Shown here: positions 15,597 to 25,482 of the stretch, in pieces
Layout: every line of letters starts with the position of its first letter
How positions within the stretch are numbered: position 1 is the stretch's first letter
NCBI GenBank assembly: GCA_002456975.1
Contig: NTKA01000001.1
Coordinates: 59,520 to 123,519, forward strand
Length of the DNA stretch: 64,000 nt
DNA from: Halieaceae bacterium MED-G27
GTDB lineage: Bacteria > Pseudomonadota > Gammaproteobacteria > Pseudomonadales > Halieaceae
Direction: 5' to 3'
Made by a program: the position numbers and the translations under genes
Notes under the pieces: model-generated
Seen by the model: only the letters and a program-made list of their open reading frames with translations
Databases searched by the model: none
Told to the model about the DNA's origin: nothing

Positions 15597-15621
15597 AAAG
15601 GTGCTAGCGAGGATTTGCCCC

Positions 15622-16560
15622 ATGTCGAGGCTTAATCGCGTAGACCTCAATTTATTGGTCTACCTCGACGCATTGTTGCGCGAACGCAATGTGACACAAG
15701 CGGCTCACAGCCTGGGGTTATCCCAGCCCGCCATGAGTAACGGACTCAAGCGTCTTCGAGAAGTATTCAACGACCCACTCCTCATCCGAACCTCGGATGG
15801 CATGACGCCCACGGCAAAAGCAGAAGAGCTCGAGCCACAATTACGCGAAATCCTGACCGGCGTTGACCAAGCTCTGCAGCCAACTGACGAGTTTATGCCC
15901 GCCCGCGAAAACCGCGTGGTTCGATTGATGGCAAGCGATTACGCTGAATCGACGCTACTGCCGGCAGTGCTCCATGAGCTCCGCGAGCAGGCACCCGGGG
16001 TAACGCTTGATATTATGAACCCCTCGGATGTCAGCTTCCTCGATGTAGAGCGCGGTAAGGTGGATCTAGTCATCAACCGCTTTGACCAGATGCCTCAGTC
16101 ATTTCACCAGATCACATTGTGGCAGGACTCGTTTTCCTGCCTATTGAGTCCGGACAATCCAATACTCGAAAACTTCACGCTCGACAGCTACCTCGCAGCC
16201 GATCATATCTGGGTGAGCAAAACGGGCATGGGCGTCGGCGTGGGGGTTAACCCCGATGACGTTCAGCGACTGGGCTGGGTAGATTCCACCTTGGCGAGTT
16301 TGGGAAAAAAACGGCGCATTCGTGTGTTTACCCGGCACTACCAAGCGGCAATGACATTGGCTGAACAGAATGATCTAATCGCGACATTACCGACTCGTGC
16401 GACGTATCTAAAGCGTGACAACCCGAGGGTGGTTGTACGTGATGTCCCCTTCGATATGCCCGCAATGGAATTGAAAATGGCCTGGAGCCCGCTTCTTCAG
16501 CATAATCCTGGACATCGTTGGATTCGGCAGCTCATTACGCAAGTAGCGCGGTCGATTTAA
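15622..16560 (+). CDS. LysR-family transcriptional regulator (NodD-like subgroup)
   Basis: MSRLNRVDLNLLVYLDALLRERNVTQAAHSLGLSQPAMSNGLKRLREVFNDPLLIRTSDGMTPTAKAEEL; ATG at 15622 preferred over GTG at 15601. Confidence 0.93.
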   Translation: MSRLNRVDLNLLVYLDALLRERNVTQAAHSLGLSQPAMSNGLKRLREVFNDPLLIRTSDGMTPTAKAEELEPQLREILTGVDQALQPTDEFMPARENRVVRLMASDYAESTLLPAVLHELREQAPGVTLDIMNPSDVSFLDVERGKVDLVINRFDQMPQSFHQITLWQDSFSCLLSPDNPILENFTLDSYLAADHIWVSKTGMGVGVGVNPDDVQRLGWVDSTLASLGKKRRIRVFTRHYQAAMTLAEQNDLIATLPTRATYLKRDNPRVVVRDVPFDMPAMELKMAWSPLLQHNPGHRWIRQLITQVARSI

Positions 16561-16577
16561 TCATCGAGGACGGTGCC

Positions 16578-18245
16578 ATGAGCGAAACGATTGAACTCAA
16601 AGGTCAGTACGAAGCCGCGACCGTGTACTCAAATGAGCCAGTTGTTGCGGTGCGAGATAATGTGATCTCGCCTATCGAATGCCTCTATCTCATCGAACTG
16701 GCGAAACCTCACATCAAGCGCGCCGGTGTTGTACTCGATGATGGGTATCGCGAGAGCGATGGGCGGACAGGTTCGAACCATTGGCTGAAATATGAGGAAG
16801 ACGATGTCGTCAAATCGATCGGTCAGCGACTTGCCGATATTGTTGGCTTACCGCTGACCAACGCGGAATCGATGCAAATCATCCACTACGGCCCCACCCA
16901 GGAGTATCGACCCCATTTCGATGCATTCAACCTAAGTCAGCCGCGGGGTCAGCGGGCCGCAAAGTGGGGTGGACAACGCTTGGTGACGGCTTTGGTCTAC
17001 CTGAATCAGCCCGAAAGTGGTGGCAGTACCGAATTCCCCAAGCTCGGGATCAAGGTCCCAGCACTACCCGGCCGCATGGTGATCTTTCACAACACCGACG
17101 AGGACATGAGTGGCCCGCACCCCCTCAGCCTGCACGCAGGCATGCCCGTCGAGGCCGGTGAAAAATGGGCCTTCAACCTGTGGTTTCGCCACGGCGAGAC
17201 GAGCAAGTCCTATTCGATCACTGCAGACGACGATCTTCCGAAGGTCAAGTTCTCTACTGGCGCGGCTGCAAAAGCGCAATCACCGACGTTAGCCGATCCA
17301 TCCACGCACTCAGATGTCCCCAATCGGCTGACCGTGATTAGTAATCGCGCTGAAGGCCTATGGCAAGAAGCGGTCGCCAACCTCAAGCGCCGACACGGTG
17401 ACAGCCTTGAAGCCGCCCACGTCAGCTACTGGGATAGTTACGGTAATAACGAGGCCCCTGAGGCACCGACGGGATTTTCAGCGCCGATCTACAGCACCGC
17501 TAGTCGAAGCGTCCTGAATCCGCTGTCTGATCAACGAGAGTTTTCGCGCTTATTGAAACAAACCGGATGTGCCTCGATCGCACCCGCAACGTACGAATCG
17601 ATCGAGGACGTCAAAACCACTCAACCCGACCCTCAGCAACTCTGGTTTATTAAGTCGCGCATGCGATCAGCCAAGGACAACACACTCTGCGTGCCAACGG
17701 CAGTGCTACTCGCAGCCTCACTGCCGGCTAATCACGTAGTTCAAGCAGGTGTTAGCAATATTGAGCTCATAGCGAATCGTAAGTTCACTTACCGCTGCTA
17801 CCTCGTCATGGTGGATGGCTGCTTACACGCCTTCCAAAATGGCGTCGTTTTCGTCCACGGCGCACCCTATGTGCCCACACAGGCCGACTTTACAAGTCAG
17901 GTTGATAACAAAAGCTATCGCGAGCCCGATTCGGGTATCGATGTATTGCCCATGACTGACACTGAACATGCGGAGGCGCTGCTTGCTGGTACTGCTTCGC
18001 TGGCCAAAGCTATGCAGCCCGCATTGTTGGCTCTCAGCAATGAATGCAAAGGCCAGAAATTCGCCATTTTAGGGCTCGATACCTTGTTAAAGCGGGACGG
18101 TCAGCTATCACTCATCCGCGTGCATTCATTCCCGAACTTCGTTATGACCCGGGACATAAACGATGCGGTTCATTTGCCGTTATTTGAAAATATCCTCAAG
18201 TTAATGGTGGGGCGTAACTCCGATTTACTCACCCCACTCCAGTAA
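16578..18245 (+). CDS. Prolyl 4-hydroxylase-type 2OG-Fe(II) dioxygenase fused to a TTL (tubulin-tyrosine ligase)-like ATP-grasp domain
   Basis: N-term: MQIIHYGPTQEYRPHFDAFN...LVTALVYLNQPESGGSTEFPKLGIKVPALPGRMVIFHN...HAGMPVEAGEKWAFNLWFR (HxD...H...K). C-term: LWFIKS...HVVQAGVSNIELIANRKFTYRCYLVMVDGCLHAFQNGVVFVHGAPY...FAILGLDTLLKRDGQLSLIRVHSFPNF follows TTL domain order. ATG at 16578 preferred; 17 nt after lysR stop. Confidence 0.85.
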   Translation: MSETIELKGQYEAATVYSNEPVVAVRDNVISPIECLYLIELAKPHIKRAGVVLDDGYRESDGRTGSNHWLKYEEDDVVKSIGQRLADIVGLPLTNAESMQIIHYGPTQEYRPHFDAFNLSQPRGQRAAKWGGQRLVTALVYLNQPESGGSTEFPKLGIKVPALPGRMVIFHNTDEDMSGPHPLSLHAGMPVEAGEKWAFNLWFRHGETSKSYSITADDDLPKVKFSTGAAAKAQSPTLADPSTHSDVPNRLTVISNRAEGLWQEAVANLKRRHGDSLEAAHVSYWDSYGNNEAPEAPTGFSAPIYSTASRSVLNPLSDQREFSRLLKQTGCASIAPATYESIEDVKTTQPDPQQLWFIKSRMRSAKDNTLCVPTAVLLAASLPANHVVQAGVSNIELIANRKFTYRCYLVMVDGCLHAFQNGVVFVHGAPYVPTQADFTSQVDNKSYREPDSGIDVLPMTDTEHAEALLAGTASLAKAMQPALLALSNECKGQKFAILGLDTLLKRDGQLSLIRVHSFPNFVMTRDINDAVHLPLFENILKLMVGRNSDLLTPLQ

Positions 18246-18519: not shown

Positions 18520-20703
18520 ATGACTAAACGTATCGAATGCTCAGGCTTGCAGGTGGATCCTGTGATTCATGCCCTACTCGAACAGGAAATCGTTCCTGGC
18601 TCTGGTCTCAGCGCCGATCAATTTTGGCAGGCTCTCGCGGACATCGTTGAGCGGTTTACGCCGAGAAATCGGGAGCTTTTAGGCATCAGAGACTCGATGC
18701 AAGCCAAGATCGATGATTGGCACCGCGCCAACCCGGGTCCTGATTACGACCGAAGCGCATACAAATTATTTTTGGAAGAAATCGGCTATCTCCTACCACA
18801 GCCTGAGCCATTCAACGTTGTCACACAGAATGTCGATCCAGAAATCGCTCAAGTCGCGGGACCGCAACTGGTAGTTCCCGTCATGAACGCGCGCTATGCG
18901 CTCAACGCTGCTAACGCCCGCTGGGGTAGTCTCTATGATGCGCTGTACGGTACCGATGTCATCTCAGAAGAAGACGGCGCAGAGCGAGCTGGGAGATATA
19001 ACCCTGTCCGCGGCGATAAGGTTATTGCTTGGGCGCGTGGCTTCCTCGACAAACACTTCCCGCTGACCCATGGCAGCCATAACAAGGCAGCGCAATACGC
19101 AGTGCTCGATGGCGGCCTAGTGATTAATCAGATCGATGGCAGTTTGAGTATGCTAGCAACGCCTGATCAGTTCGCAGGTTACATGGGTGATGCCGATGAT
19201 CCTAGCGGCGTGCTCTTCAAGCACAACGGCCTCCACGTGGAGATCCAGATCGATCGCGAGCACTCGGTGGGCAGTACCGATGCTGCCGGTGTAAAAGATG
19301 TTTACCTCGAGTCTGCCTTGACCACGATTCAGGATTGCGAAGACTCGGTCGCCGCCGTCGATGCCGCTGATAAGGCTGTGGTCTATCGAAACTGGCTGGG
19401 TCTGATGAAAGGCGATCTCGAAGAGAGCGTTAACAAAGGCGGCAGCACGCTTACACGCACCTTAAATCCAGATCGCGAGTTCATTGACGCAAATGGCGAG
19501 ACCTTCAGCTTGCCTGGGCGCAGTGTCATGTTCGTCCGCAATGTAGGGCATTTGATGACCAACCCAGCCATTCTCGACAGCGACGGCGATGAGATATTTG
19601 AAGGCATCATGGACGCGCTGTTCACCACCGCGTGCTCACTTCACGATATTCGTGGCGATGGCGCGCTCAAAAACTCCAAGACGGGCTCGATTTACATTGT
19701 TAAACCAAAGATGCATGGGCCGGATGAGGTGAGCTTTACCGACGACTTGTTTGCGGCCGTAGAAAATGCATTCCAGCTCCCCAAGAACACCCTGAAAATG
19801 GGGATCATGGACGAAGAGCGACGAACCACGGTTAACCTCGCCGAGTGTATCCGCCGAGCCTGCAATCGGGTGGTGTTCATCAACACCGGCTTCCTGGATC
19901 GCACCGGTGATGAAATCCACACCAGCATGCATGCCGGCCCAATGATGCCCAAGACCCGAATGAAAGAAGCGCTCTGGATCAATGCTTACGAAGACTGGAA
20001 TGTTGATGTTGGCCTCGCGAGTGGCCTTCGCGGGCGAGCCCAAATTGGGAAAGGCATGTGGGCCATGCCTGACCTCATGAAGGCTATGATCGATGCCAAA
20101 CTGGGTCATCCCACAGCGGGTGCGAATTGCGCTTGGGTGCCATCACCCACCGCCGCCACCTTGCATGCTACCCACTATCACGATGTGAATGTTCAGTTAG
20201 TTCAGGCAGAACTCGAAGGCAATGCTCGACGCCAAGTCGAGGACATACTTGATATACCTCTTTACGACTGCAGCACATTGTCGGCCGACGACATCGAGCG
20301 CGAGCTCGACAATAACGCTCAAGGTATTCTGGGTTATGTCGTGCGCTGGGTAGATCAAGGCGTTGGATGCTCAAAAGTGCCTGATATCAATAACGTGGGA
20401 CTAATGGAAGACCGAGCCACGCTCCGAATTTCGAGCCAGCACGTTGCCAACTGGTTGCATCATGGCATTATCACAGAATCGCAGGTCTCAGCCTCACTAA
20501 CCAAAATGGCAAAGGTGGTAGACGAGCAAAATGTCATTGACTCCAGCTACCGACCACTTATCGCTGCAGATAAACCGAGCTTAGCGTTTGAGGCTGCCTT
20601 GTCCTTAGTGACTGATGGCGTGGTAGAATCAAGTGGCTACACAGAACCTTGTCTGCACAGAATGCGACAACTATTTAAATCAAACGACAGCAGTTCGAAC
20701 TAA
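18520..20703 (+). CDS. glcB: Malate synthase G
   Basis: 727 aa; [115 protein letters not shown]. Confidence 0.97.
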
Positions 20704-20780: not shown

Positions 20781-20924
20781 CGCTAGCGATCTCTTAGTCG
20801 CCAATCTTAGGCTCGCGATCATTCGGAGCCTCAGTCCTATTTAACTAAGCTAATGATGCAATAAGCGCGAAAATGGGGTTTTTAAGAAGCGAATTGTGCT
20901 TTTTTAGACGACCTCGCTAGACAT

Positions 20925-20940
20925 TGGCATGGCACATGCA
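20925..20940 (+). promoter_or_regulatory. Sigma-54 (-24/-12) promoter of pilA
   Basis: TGGCATGGCACATGCA: GG-N10-GC spacing matching TGGCACG-N4-TTGCA; 47 nt before the pilA ATG. Confidence 0.75.
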
Positions 20941-20986
20941 AGGTAGTGAGTGGCGGGCACATCACTCAGCCCGAAAAGGAGAAAAA

Positions 20987-21427
20987 ATGTCAATTCAAAG
21001 TCTAGCCAAAAGATCAGAGCAAGATGGCTTCACCCTTATCGAGTTAATGATTGTAATTGCAATAGTTGGTAGCCTGGTGGCGGTAGCTCTGCCCTCTTAC
21101 ACCAATTACACAAAGAGGGCAAAGTTCGCAGAAGTTATCAACGCCACCCAAGCGGTTCGTGGCGCCATAGACTCTTGTTACCAAATCGGTGGTGCTATCG
21201 CATCATGTGATGCCGTCGACGATATTAACGTCAGCATTCTGGTCGGTGACACGGTTGAAGGCACATTCGTCTCAACGCTCGCGGTAACAGAAAACACGGC
21301 GGTGATTACAGCCACGGGTACAAGTGACGTAGACGGGGCGACTTATATCCTTACCCCTACCGCGGCCAACAATACGCTCACTTGGGCAGTAACAGGCACC
21401 TGCTCGGCAACCTACGGACTTTGCTAA
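20987..21427 (+). CDS. pilA: Type IV major pilin PilA
   Basis: RBS AAAGGAG then MSIQSLAKRSEQDGFTLIELMIVIAIVGSLVAVALPSYTNYTKRAKFAEV; class IV prepilin signal and C-terminal Cys pair. Track ORF starts too far upstream (20924). Confidence 0.93.
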   Translation: MSIQSLAKRSEQDGFTLIELMIVIAIVGSLVAVALPSYTNYTKRAKFAEVINATQAVRGAIDSCYQIGGAIASCDAVDDINVSILVGDTVEGTFVSTLAVTENTAVITATGTSDVDGATYILTPTAANNTLTWAVTGTCSATYGLC

Positions 21428-21500
21428 GTAGTAAACTTGAGCAGAAAGGAAAGTTAGGTTGGCTGAGCAAAAGCACCTCAGCCGGCTTCGCCTCATTTCA

Positions 21501-21533
21501 AAACCTCGGACAATTGTTTCCGAGGTTTTTTTT
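21501..21533 (+). terminator. Rho-independent terminator after pilA
   Basis: AAACCTCGGA-CAATTGTT-TCCGAGGTTT stem followed by a T run. Confidence 0.9.
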
Positions 21534-21626
21534 ATCAATGTGCACCTATGATAATGTAGGCCTGCGAGTAAATAGGCCGCAAAGCAGGTTAGGCTTGAGG
21601 CAATCGATCAGGTTAAAACGCTTACG

Positions 21627-23363
21627 ATGAACTCCAAAGCAACGACTGATACGGCGCAAATTTCTTACTCGGGACTTTCTCAGCGCCTGGTCAGTGAACA
21701 GTTATTGTCTGCCGCGAGTGCGGCTGAGATTGTCAAAACAGCCAGGGAATCTGGCGTCACCCTAGTAGAAGAACTCGTTCAGTCAGGTCACGTCCCCAGT
21801 CAGCCGCTAGCCCGCCTTGTCTCTGAAGAATACGGCGTACCCATGTTTAATCTTGATCAAATGGTGCCCGAAGAGTTCGCCACTCATTTAGTACCGGCAA
21901 GCCTAATCCGAAAACATCGTTCGCTACCTTTATTCAGACGGGGTAATCGTCTTTTCATTGCTTTATCGGATCCGACTAACAAACCCGCAGTGGACGAATT
22001 TAAGTTTGCAACGGGCATTGCGACCGAAACGATCGTCGTCGATCACGAGCAACTTGGCCGAGTCATTGACGATGTGATCGCTAAGCAAGATGAAGTATTC
22101 GATGGCGATATCGAGGACTTCACCTCTGCTGAAGACTTTCTTCCTGACATGGATGTCGAGGACGAGGCCGAAGAGCTTGATCTTAATTCGCTGGCTGACG
22201 ACGCGCCCATCGTAAAGTTTGTAAACAAAGTTTTATTCGACGCCATCAAGATGGCGGCCTCCGATATTCATTTCGAGCCATACGAAAAGGAGTACCGAAT
22301 TAGAATACGCTCGGACGGCATTTTGCGTGAGGTAGTGCGTCCACCGAAGGGCTTATCACCCCGCCTTGCGGCCCGCCTAAAGGTCATGGCCCGTTTAGAC
22401 ATCTCCGAGCGCCGCGCCCCTCAAGATGGTCGAATTCAACTGAAGCTATCAAAGAATCGATCGATCGATTTTCGAGTCAGCACGCTCCCCACACTATTCG
22501 GGGAGAAAATTGTATTGCGAATTCTGGATCCTAACTCGGCTCGCATGGGTATCGATGCGCTGGGATACGAGGAGGATCAAAAGACACTATATCTCAGTGC
22601 ACTTGAAAAACCTCAAGGCATGATCCTGGTGACTGGGCCAACCGGTTCTGGGAAAACGGTATCGCTCTACACGGGGCTCGACATTCTGAATGAGCCCGAG
22701 CGCAACATTTCTACCGCGGAAGATCCGGTAGAAATCAACATGGAAGGCGTTAACCAGGTTCACGTTAATCCCAAAGTGGGCTTGAACTTTGCACAAGTGT
22801 TGAGGTCATTTTTGCGTCAGGATCCGGATATTTTGATGGTCGGAGAAATCCGAGACTTAGAGACCGCTGAAATCGCGGTTAAAGCAGCTCAAACAGGTCA
22901 CCTAGTCCTCTCCGCGCTGCATACCAATAGCGCGCCCGAGACCATCAATCGACTGCTCAACATGGGAATACCGGCCTACAATATCGCGTCCTCAGTATCG
23001 CTTATCATTGCGCAACGACTCGCAAGACGACTCTGTGAAAATTGCGCTGAGGATGAAACCAACGTGCCGACAGAGGCGCTTCGTGAACTTGGCTTCACTG
23101 ACGAGTTATTAGCAAATGCCACCATCAAAAAGCCCGTTGGTTGTAACCAATGTCGCAAAGGCTACAGCGGGCGAGTTGGCATCTATGAGGTTGTCGCGAT
23201 AACCAAAGAGATATCGTCGGTCATTATGGATGGCGCGAATACAACCACGCTTGAGAAGACTGCGCGGGACGCCGGCTTCTACAGCCTTAGAGCAGCAGCA
23301 CTCAAGAAATGTGCGGCGGGTATTATAGGGCTCGACGAGGTGACACGAGTCACTGTTGACTGA
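21627..23363 (+). CDS. pilB: Type IV pilus assembly ATPase PilB
   Basis: 578 aa; GPTGSGKTVSLYTGLDILN, STAEDPVEINMEGVNQVHVNPKVGLNFAQVLRSFLRQDPDILMVGEIRDLETAEIAVKAAQTGHLVLSALHTN; CxxC...CxxC. Confidence 0.97.
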   Translation: MNSKATTDTAQISYSGLSQRLVSEQLLSAASAAEIVKTARESGVTLVEELVQSGHVPSQPLARLVSEEYGVPMFNLDQMVPEEFATHLVPASLIRKHRSLPLFRRGNRLFIALSDPTNKPAVDEFKFATGIATETIVVDHEQLGRVIDDVIAKQDEVFDGDIEDFTSAEDFLPDMDVEDEAEELDLNSLADDAPIVKFVNKVLFDAIKMAASDIHFEPYEKEYRIRIRSDGILREVVRPPKGLSPRLAARLKVMARLDISERRAPQDGRIQLKLSKNRSIDFRVSTLPTLFGEKIVLRILDPNSARMGIDALGYEEDQKTLYLSALEKPQGMILVTGPTGSGKTVSLYTGLDILNEPERNISTAEDPVEINMEGVNQVHVNPKVGLNFAQVLRSFLRQDPDILMVGEIRDLETAEIAVKAAQTGHLVLSALHTNSAPETINRLLNMGIPAYNIASSVSLIIAQRLARRLCENCAEDETNVPTEALRELGFTDELLANATIKKPVGCNQCRKGYSGRVGIYEVVAITKEISSVIMDGANTTTLEKTARDAGFYSLRAAALKKCAAGIIGLDEVTRVTVD

Positions 23364-23414
23364 TAGGCAATAAATTGGGTCTAGGGGAAATCTAGCTTGC
23401 AGGGGGGGGCATCG

Positions 23415-24623
23415 ATGGCGGGCAGTGAGATTACATTTGTCTGGTCTGGCAGCGACCGTACCGGCAGAAGTGCGCAGGGTGAAATAAACGCACCGAGTGT
23501 CACCATTGCTAAAGCCCAGCTTAGGCGCCAAGGCATCAAGGCAAAGAGGGTCAGAAAGAAGCCACAGCCGCTGTTTAGCTTTGGTCAGGCCATCAAGCCC
23601 GCTGATATCGCAGTCTTCACGCGTCAACTAGCGACCATGAGCAAGGCCGGTGTAACGATGGTGCAAGGAATAGATATCGTCATGGAGGGCACCGATAAAG
23701 CCCCTATGAAAGACCTCATCAGGCAAATACGAAATGATGTGTCGGGCGGCGCTCCAGTGGCACTCTCGATGAGCAAGCACGATAAGTACTTTGACGACCT
23801 GTATTGCAGCTTAATTTCCGCGGGCGAAAATTCGGGCACTTTAGAGGTCATGCTCGATCGAATTGCTATCTACAAGGAAAAAACTGAGGCGCTGAAAGCT
23901 AAGATCAAAAAGGCTTTGACGTATCCGATAGCCACCATGGTGGTTGCAGTGGTAGTTACCGGGATTTTGCTTATCAACGTAGTACCTCAATTTGCCGTGA
24001 CTTTCGAGAGCTTTGGCTCCGACCTGCCCGCGTTTACTCAGTTGGTCGTCGCCATATCAGAGTCGGTACAAGAATGGTGGTTACTAATCTTGGGGGGCAT
24101 GGGCGGCTCGATATTCTTATTCAACCGGCTGATGCGCACCTCACAGGCCTTCAGCGACAGAATCGATGCATTGTTGCTTAAGGCGCCGCTCTTTGGAGAG
24201 ATTGTTAAAGACTCGGTTATTGCGCGCTACTCAAGAACCCTATCCACTACTTTCGCCGCCGGAGTCCCCTTGGTGGAAGCGCTTGATGCCACTGCAGCAG
24301 CCTCGGGTAACGCTGTGTATGCCAGAGCCATTAAACGGATGCGAGACGATGTCACCTCGGGCTTATCGCTCTATCAGGCTACTAGAGCCTCTGGCTTGTT
24401 TCCCATGTTTTTGCTGCAAATGACTACGATAGGTGAGGAATCGGGAACCCTCGATGAAATGCTTGGGAAGGTAGCCGATCAGTTTGAACAACAAGTCGAT
24501 AATGCGGTCGATTCGATCAGCACATTAATCGAGCCACTCATCATGTCCATCTTAGGCGTTTTGATCGGTGGTCTCATGATAGCCATGTATCTGCCGATCT
24601 TTATGCTCGGCACCGTTATGTAA
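23415..24623 (+). CDS. pilC: Type IV pilus inner membrane platform protein PilC
   Basis: FTRQLATMSKAGVTMVQGIDIV, two GspF/PilC repeats, TIGEESGTLDEMLGKVADQFEQQVDNAVDSISTLIEPLIM; ATG at 23415 preferred (TTG at 23397 in track). Confidence 0.95.
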   Translation: MAGSEITFVWSGSDRTGRSAQGEINAPSVTIAKAQLRRQGIKAKRVRKKPQPLFSFGQAIKPADIAVFTRQLATMSKAGVTMVQGIDIVMEGTDKAPMKDLIRQIRNDVSGGAPVALSMSKHDKYFDDLYCSLISAGENSGTLEVMLDRIAIYKEKTEALKAKIKKALTYPIATMVVAVVVTGILLINVVPQFAVTFESFGSDLPAFTQLVVAISESVQEWWLLILGGMGGSIFLFNRLMRTSQAFSDRIDALLLKAPLFGEIVKDSVIARYSRTLSTTFAAGVPLVEALDATAAASGNAVYARAIKRMRDDVTSGLSLYQATRASGLFPMFLLQMTTIGEESGTLDEMLGKVADQFEQQVDNAVDSISTLIEPLIMSILGVLIGGLMIAMYLPIFMLGTVM

Positions 24624-24624
24624 C

Positions 24625-25482
24625 ATGGACCCGCTCGAGGAATTGATCAGAGCTCAGCCGGGCCTATCGATCACACTCTTGGCTTTTGGGCTGGTGGTCG
24701 GCAGTTTTCTTAATGTTGTCATCCACCGGCTCCCCAAAATCATGGAGTCAGAATGGCGTAGAGACAGTGCAGAAATTCTGGGGCAGCCTGAGCCCGGGGA
24801 ACAGGCTCTATCTCTTGCATTCCCAGGATCCCAGTGTCCCGCCTGCGGCTGTGACATCAAGCCCTGGCACAACATCCCGGTCATTAGTTTCCTCGCCCTA
24901 CGAGGTCAGTGTGCCAACTGTAGCGCCTCGATTTCGGTCCGATATCCAATGGTCGAGGCAATAACTGCAGCCATCTGGATAGCCTGCGGCCTGGCATTTG
25001 GCGTGAGCTACGCATTGGTGGGCGCCATGATTCTTACCGCAGTGCTGATCTGCCTGACCGCGATCGATCTCGATACTCAGCTGCTCCCCGATAGCCTGAC
25101 GCTACCCCTGGTTTGGATTGGGCTTCTACTCAACCTCAGCGGCACTTACGCAACACTCGAGAGCGCCGTTTTAGGTGCAGTCGCAGGCTATCTGAGTCTG
25201 TGGTCGGTTTACTGGGGCTTTAAGCTACTCACCGGAAAGGAAGGTATGGGCTACGGTGACTTCAAGTTGCTCGCTGCCCTAGGCGCTTGGTTTGGTATGG
25301 GGGCTATCCCAACCCTAATCCTAGCCTCGTCCTTGGTAGGCGCTGTCGTCGGTATCTTGCTTATCGTTACTGGCCGTCAAGGCCGTGAAACACCTATGCC
25401 GTTTGGCCCGTTCTTAGCAGGAGCGGGCCTACTTCACCTCTTTTTCCCAAACTTGCTTGTAAGCTTGATCACTGGAGTATAG
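24625..25482 (+). CDS. pilD: Prepilin peptidase/N-methyltransferase PilD
   Basis: 285 aa; CPACGCDIKPWHNIPVISFLALRGQCANCSASISVRYPMVE, AIDLDTQLLPD, GKEGMGYGDFKLLAALGAW. Confidence 0.97.
   Translation: MDPLEELIRAQPGLSITLLAFGLVVGSFLNVVIHRLPKIMESEWRRDSAEILGQPEPGEQALSLAFPGSQCPACGCDIKPWHNIPVISFLALRGQCANCSASISVRYPMVEAITAAIWIACGLAFGVSYALVGAMILTAVLICLTAIDLDTQLLPDSLTLPLVWIGLLLNLSGTYATLESAVLGAVAGYLSLWSVYWGFKLLTGKEGMGYGDFKLLAALGAWFGMGAIPTLILASSLVGAVVGILLIVTGRQGRETPMPFGPFLAGAGLLHLFFPNLLVSLITGV

Follow-up and report, generated by a model that had tools for sequence, protein, structure and literature searches.

What a hydroxylase might gain from being joined, in one polypeptide chain, to a domain with the fold of tubulin tyrosine ligase (TTL) but an altered ATP/Mg site is the question raised by a gene of Halieaceae bacterium MED-G27. 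The window analysed here, a stretch of 64 kb, comes from a genome of 2.02 Mb (75% complete) whose named relatives are Luminiphilus and other Halieaceae MAGs. The reading favored here, with a probability of about 0.6, is that the gene product is a cytosolic prolyl-4-hydroxylase (P4H), dependent on Fe(II), 2-oxoglutarate and O2, in which a TTL-fold pseudo-ligase would present a substrate or partner for hydroxylation. The first-pass annotation had not recognised the architecture as a characterised enzyme, and that impression holds: no NCBIfam model matched the protein, and no description of the P4H-ATP-grasp architecture, or of the P4H-GT60-ATP-grasp form taken up below, was found in the open-licence literature searched. 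The gene lies among the following features:

15601..16560, forward strand: LysR-type regulator gene (lysR), directly upstream (Pfam HTH_1 2.6e-16, LysR_substrate 5.9e-22)
16566..16570, forward strand: GAGGA, Shine-Dalgarno-like, 7 nt 5' of the ATG (sequence as read)
16578..18245, forward strand: gene for P4H, linker and degenerate TTL-type ATP-grasp domain (ORF, 555 aa, Pfam)
18520..20703, forward strand: malate synthase G gene (glcB), the constant downstream neighbour (Pfam; synteny)

The open reading frame contains no internal stop, and a longer TTG frame of the same ORF opens at 16518. Translation is assumed to begin with the ATG at 16578, because GAGGA stands 7 nt before it and because the stop codon of lysR lies 17 bp before it; this same short distance makes it probable that the two genes form one operon. 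Scans of the locus for promoters and terminators gave no matches above chance.

The N-terminal half is readily placed among known enzymes, and four of its features bear on its function:

16578..17192, forward strand: P4H domain of the collagen/algal/Bacillus type, residues 1-205 (PF13640 8e-16; matches to 2jig, 3gze and 3itq)
16914..16922, forward strand: H113-x-D115, Fe(II) ligands (alignment; invariant in 14 rows)
17133..17165, forward strand: H186, third Fe ligand, to K196, 2-oxoglutarate anchor (invariant in 14 rows)
17205..17327, forward strand: disordered, fast-evolving linker, residues 210-250 (pLDDT below 50 at 215-249; dN/dS 0.27-0.97)

The Pfam family 2OG-FeII_Oxy_3 (PF13640) covers residues 99-204, and phmmer matches Chlamydomonas P4H-1 (2jig) at 1.5e-27; for Bacillus P4H the values are 6e-26 to 7e-26. 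Foldseek with the full-length model likewise gives P4H structures (2jig, 3gze, 3itq, 5v7y). An intact-looking 2-oxoglutarate/Fe(II) hydroxylase had been noted from the sequence at the outset, and the alignments bear this out, as H113, D115, H186 and K196 fall at the Fe and 2-oxoglutarate positions and are retained in all of the P4H-ATP-grasp fusions. From these residues the domain is predicted to be an active hydroxylase. No signal peptide is apparent on the protein, which is for this reason taken to be cytosolic.

The C-terminal half is far more divergent, and its assignment depends on comparison of folds as well as of sequences:

17328..18242, forward strand: TTL-type ATP-grasp domain, residues 251-555 (PF03133; profile; AlphaFold; Foldseek)
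17427..17444, forward strand: YWDSYG, a conserved motif of the fused forms, N-terminal of the ATP-grasp core (YWD invariant in A1 and A3)
17655..17690, forward strand: SRMRSAKDNTLC, residues 360-371, degenerate site of the Gly-rich ATP loop (alignment; relatives have GTGGKG, GSGGK or GTAGQG)
17781..17795, forward strand: KFTYR, counterpart of TTL KFDLR (K and R in every family member)
18078..18080, forward strand: D501, retained counterpart of the first Mg-binding Asp of TTL (alignment)
18117..18125, forward strand: R514-V515-H516 in place of E-[IV]-N, the Mg ligands (alignment)

The Pfam TTL family (PF03133) matches the whole protein at 3.4e-5 (23.7 bits, with a cut-off of 20.1) and the C-terminal half alone at 3.4e-6. 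The window's C-terminal sequence by itself is weak against the PDB (PBY1, 0.24); a profile built from 12 family sequences reaches TTLL7 at 3.7e-12, PBY1 at 2e-9, TTLL6 at 9e-7 and TTL at 2e-6 to 2e-5. An AlphaFold model of the domain, made with 13 sequences, has a pLDDT of 91.8 and a pTM of 0.91, with confidence lowest where the Gly loop has been replaced (pLDDT 77 for that block). The structural comparison of this half that had been proposed with the initial annotation returns TTL and TTLL6 as the best PDB matches in Foldseek (E about 1e-15, TMq about 0.7), and in a viral library giant-virus TTL proteins are the best matches to the same model. In the full-length model the arrangement of the domains is unreliable (pTM 0.57). 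Thus the TTL-like character originally proposed for the segment is upheld by Pfam, AlphaFold and Foldseek, while its start, put at about 17490, has to be moved to about residue 251 (nt 17328). The YWD motif of the fused forms is absent from the plasmid and stand-alone forms.

Comparison of the active site with that of TTL, which rests on alignments, locates two losses. The replacement of E-V-N by R-V-H had already been read from the sequence; it is now seen at R514 and H516, and tabulation of the homologues finds R-[IV]-H in 13 of 13 clade sequences that reach the site (L012 ends before it at a contig end). The second loss, absent from the earlier reading, is that of the Gly-rich loop following the WFIK strand, where the window has SRMRSAKDNTLC and the Kordiimonas sediminis homologue has KAAGTGGKGMRC; in place of the GXGI-type loop of TTL and TTLL enzymes stands SAKDNTLC, and the loop is replaced in 14 of 14 clade sequences. 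The lysine of the WFIK strand is present in the window and is Arg in the other clade members, and the strand corresponding to KFDLR keeps K, F and R across the bacterial family, with D changed to T (L in the plasmid copy).

From the lost residues, the ATP-grasp domain of the window's clade is predicted to be inactive as a ligase. Some ATP-grasp and kinase-like folds nevertheless stay ATP-dependently active with non-standard residues. It might therefore be argued that the protein is still a two-step enzyme, its C-terminal half carrying out an ATP-dependent ligation or other transfer with R514 and H516 replacing the Mg ligands. The retention of D501 and of the K-F-T-x-R strand would fit such an enzyme, as would the strict conservation of R-[IV]-H, expected of residues with a job, and a purifying selection on the domain as strong as in relatives whose motifs are intact. 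Against it stand the joint disappearance of the E-x-N ligands and the Gly-rich loop, the long stem branch of the clade in the ATP-grasp tree and the observation that mutating the GEGI loop of human TTL to GAAA abolishes activity (authors' unpublished data, quoted in PMC3520985). On this balance a two-step activity in the window's own clade is unlikely. In another alternative, the C-terminal domain would be a regulatory sensor of a nucleotide or metabolite that gates hydroxylation, not a recruiter of substrate. The preserved ATP-grasp fold and the flexible linker are both compatible with such a sensor, and R514 could conceivably contact phosphate instead of Mg, but what has been lost is the Gly loop, whose usual role is to cover the ATP phosphates, and we regard a sensor as quite improbable.

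The direction of these changes can be approached through the relatives of the gene. The same fusion is found in 13 further genomes of the genus, two of them single-contig, which together with the conserved gene order rules out a fusion made by assembly; in all, 14 of the 58 genomes of the genus have the gene, and one more copy (G027) is cut at a contig end. Three genomes of a second Halieaceae genus carry the fusion with both motifs intact (LIEIN[AS]HPNF and KVGT[AS]G[QR]GVRC). EIN is also retained in fusions from a Chromatiales MAG (L033), a gammaproteobacterial MAG (L034) and Kordiimonas sediminis (L037), as well as in stand-alone ATP-grasp homologues of two genomes in the Kordiimonas order; the plasmid copy of Thioalkalivibrio K90mix has an intact Gly loop, and its E-x-N position is occupied by D-I-S. 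A tree of the ATP-grasp domain recovers the window's clade with 100/100 support and a stem length of 2.06 changes per site, adjoined by the Halieaceae genus with intact motifs (83/80); deep branches of the P4H tree have weak support. Since relatives keep EIN, and given the position of the clade in the tree, loss of E-x-N and of the Gly loop is most simply the derived state.

The family is rare, with members in two of 399 genomes drawn evenly across the phylum (the window's own genome included) and in one of 387 genomes of the class of the Kordiimonas genome, namely that genome itself; genome contigs were scanned with exact peptide patterns taken from the window protein, an approach that misses distant relatives. 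A gammaproteobacterial match at 1e-6 (G252) lies in an 847-aa frame.

Whether the altered domain is still of use to its hosts is a matter on which substitution rates are informative. Among close pairs of the window's clade, Nei-Gojobori dN/dS spans 0.01-0.05 in P4H, 0.27-0.97 in the linker and 0.09-0.21 in ATP-grasp, compared with 0.06-0.08 for P4H and 0.13-0.17 for ATP-grasp in the genus with intact motifs, usable pairs being few because synonymous sites saturate quickly. The degenerate domain is constrained about as strongly as its presumably active counterpart, yet evolves faster than its own P4H. That the ATP-grasp half is a non-functional remnant in decay, with only the hydroxylase mattering, would agree with the faster divergence (about 44% identity to clade members, against about 77% for P4H) but hardly with the dN/dS values, with complete copies free of stops and frameshifts or with the fixation of the same substitutions in all copies, and is very improbable. 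With dN/dS resembling that of the intact-motif genus, the domain looks like a maintained pseudo-ligase.

The first-pass annotation had left two readings side by side, a two-step hydroxylase and ligase or a hydroxylase that recruits through a pseudo-ligase domain. For this clade the second is favored, since two parts of the ATP/Mg site are lost clade-wide while fold and purifying selection persist; the first fares less well here, and remains plausible for the sister proteins with EIN and the Gly loop. Under the pseudo-ligase reading, an ancestral fusion with an intact ATP/Mg site would have arrived in the interval between lysR and glcB in one subclade of the genus. On the stem of that subclade E-x-N would have become R-[IV]-H and the Gly-rich loop would have been lost, with the core fold and the K-F-T-x-R strand kept. 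The TTL-fold domain, no longer a ligase and carried on a flexible linker, would then bind the substrate or a partner of the hydroxylase and present it for hydroxylation.

The genomic setting gives the proposed arrival a definite place. In all clade loci with readable flanks the order is acd, lysR, the fusion gene and glcB; the fusion gene is missing from genus members with a LysR of no more than 77-82% identity, and in five sampled relatives that could be read lysR directly adjoins glcB, leaving an empty site. Across the clade LysR itself shows 90-93% identity, a higher value than its neighbours reach; its gene and one for an acyl-CoA dehydrogenase are divergently oriented. Beyond malate synthase G the window continues with type IV pilus genes (20924-25482), of which pilB, pilC and pilD were named from sequence and the pilin by Pfam; the pilin is poorly conserved and has its counterpart on the opposite strand in one relative.

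A different elaboration of the architecture occurs in Kordiimonas sediminis (KCTC 42590), where one 875-aa chain (L037:5001-7628) contains P4H, a GlcNAc transferase domain (PF11397, 1.6e-65) and ATP-grasp with EIN; it is the only P4H-GT60-ATP-grasp protein found. We take PF11397 to correspond to CAZy GT60. No GT60 domain is present in the window protein by Pfam, and none was found in its own genome by a search that lacked a working positive control. The order of chemistry in the Kordiimonas chain suggests that of Skp1, which is hydroxylated and then glycosylated. In Toxoplasma, the Skp1 hydroxyproline made by PhyA receives GlcNAc from the GT60 enzyme Gnt1 (PMC6939170), and similar Skp1 hydroxyproline glycosylation is described in Dictyostelium (PMC3515798). 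The Kordiimonas protein suggests that bacteria may combine prolyl hydroxylation with the hydroxyproline-type glycosylation described for protist Skp1. A still broader proposal, speculative and on balance doubtful, is that of an undescribed cytosolic bacterial pathway in which one polypeptide hydroxylates proline, its GT60 domain adds GlcNAc and its TTL-like ATP-grasp domain ligates something further; in Halieaceae the hydroxylase would then have been preserved and the former ligase converted to a domain for reading or recruitment.

Origins as mobile cargo were considered and set aside. For phage, no ATP-grasp relative occurs in viral contigs within the reach of the peptide patterns, and the listed phage records match the P4H or GT60 part only. 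For plasmids, a homologous fusion exists on pTK9001 of Thioalkalivibrio, but the window copy stands in a conserved gene order. That conjugative plasmid's fusion (L074:7722-9590; strain K90mix) is annotated only as a 2-oxoglutarate-dependent dioxygenase. Stand-alone TTL-like ATP-grasp proteins with EIN intact (L081:3898-4839 and L082:49-1014) lie beside apparent nucleoside salvage or uptake genes, the translations indicating PNP, phosphoribosyltransferases, deoC-like and adenosine deaminase-like proteins and a permease.

Candidates for the substrate have likewise been weighed. The window's own genome has collagen-like matches, among them a GPQGPQGEVGP protein with an apparent signal peptide (L112:1197-1685), but none occur in two relatives that also possess the P4H gene, and collagen was set aside as a candidate. 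EF-Tu is a reasonable first candidate because it is modified both by the bacterial prolyl hydroxylase PPHD of Pseudomonas putida (PMC7864055) and, as the title of PDB entry 5v7y reports, by a Bacillus P4H. PPHD is a PHD-like enzyme, unlike the window's P4H, and what makes it comparable is that it is a bacterial prolyl hydroxylase acting on a protein.

Several known systems share parts of this design. Chlamydomonas P4H-1 (2jig, 3gze) and Bacillus anthracis P4H (3itq, 5v7y) have the same fold and Fe/2-oxoglutarate residues (TMt about 0.7-0.8), but these structures represent the P4H domain alone, whereas that of the window is fused to ATP-grasp. The Skp1 pair PhyA and Gnt1 is paralleled by the Kordiimonas relative, which joins P4H to PF11397; the window protein lacks GT60, and its P4H is closest to collagen/algal-type enzymes. 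Bacteria are not known to have Skp1. With TTL, TTLL7 and TTLL6 (PF03133) the domain shares a common fold, strand order and the K-F-x-x-R and G-x-D motifs, but it lacks E-x-N, the Gly loop and the HLTN motif and has KFT for KFD. No tubulin is to be expected in the host. As the architecture occurs both with an intact site (the other Halieaceae genus, the Chromatiales MAG) and with a degenerate one (the window's clade), natural pairs are available for testing how an enzyme turned into a pseudo-enzyme.

The nearest functional analogy, from which the recruitment role of the pseudo-ligase domain would follow, is offered by human TTLL12, in which a SET-like partner is fused to a TTL domain that has lost the Gly loop and kept EVN, and which its authors regard as a TTL-fold protein that may be inactive and serve in regulation (PMC3520985). 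Both proteins combine an enzyme-like domain with a putative pseudo-TTL whose Gly loop is gone, and in the window's clade, too, the site is lost and its substitutions are conserved under selection. The window protein differs in having P4H and R-V-H instead of a SET-like domain and EVN, and the likeness is one of working principle, with no orthology claimed.
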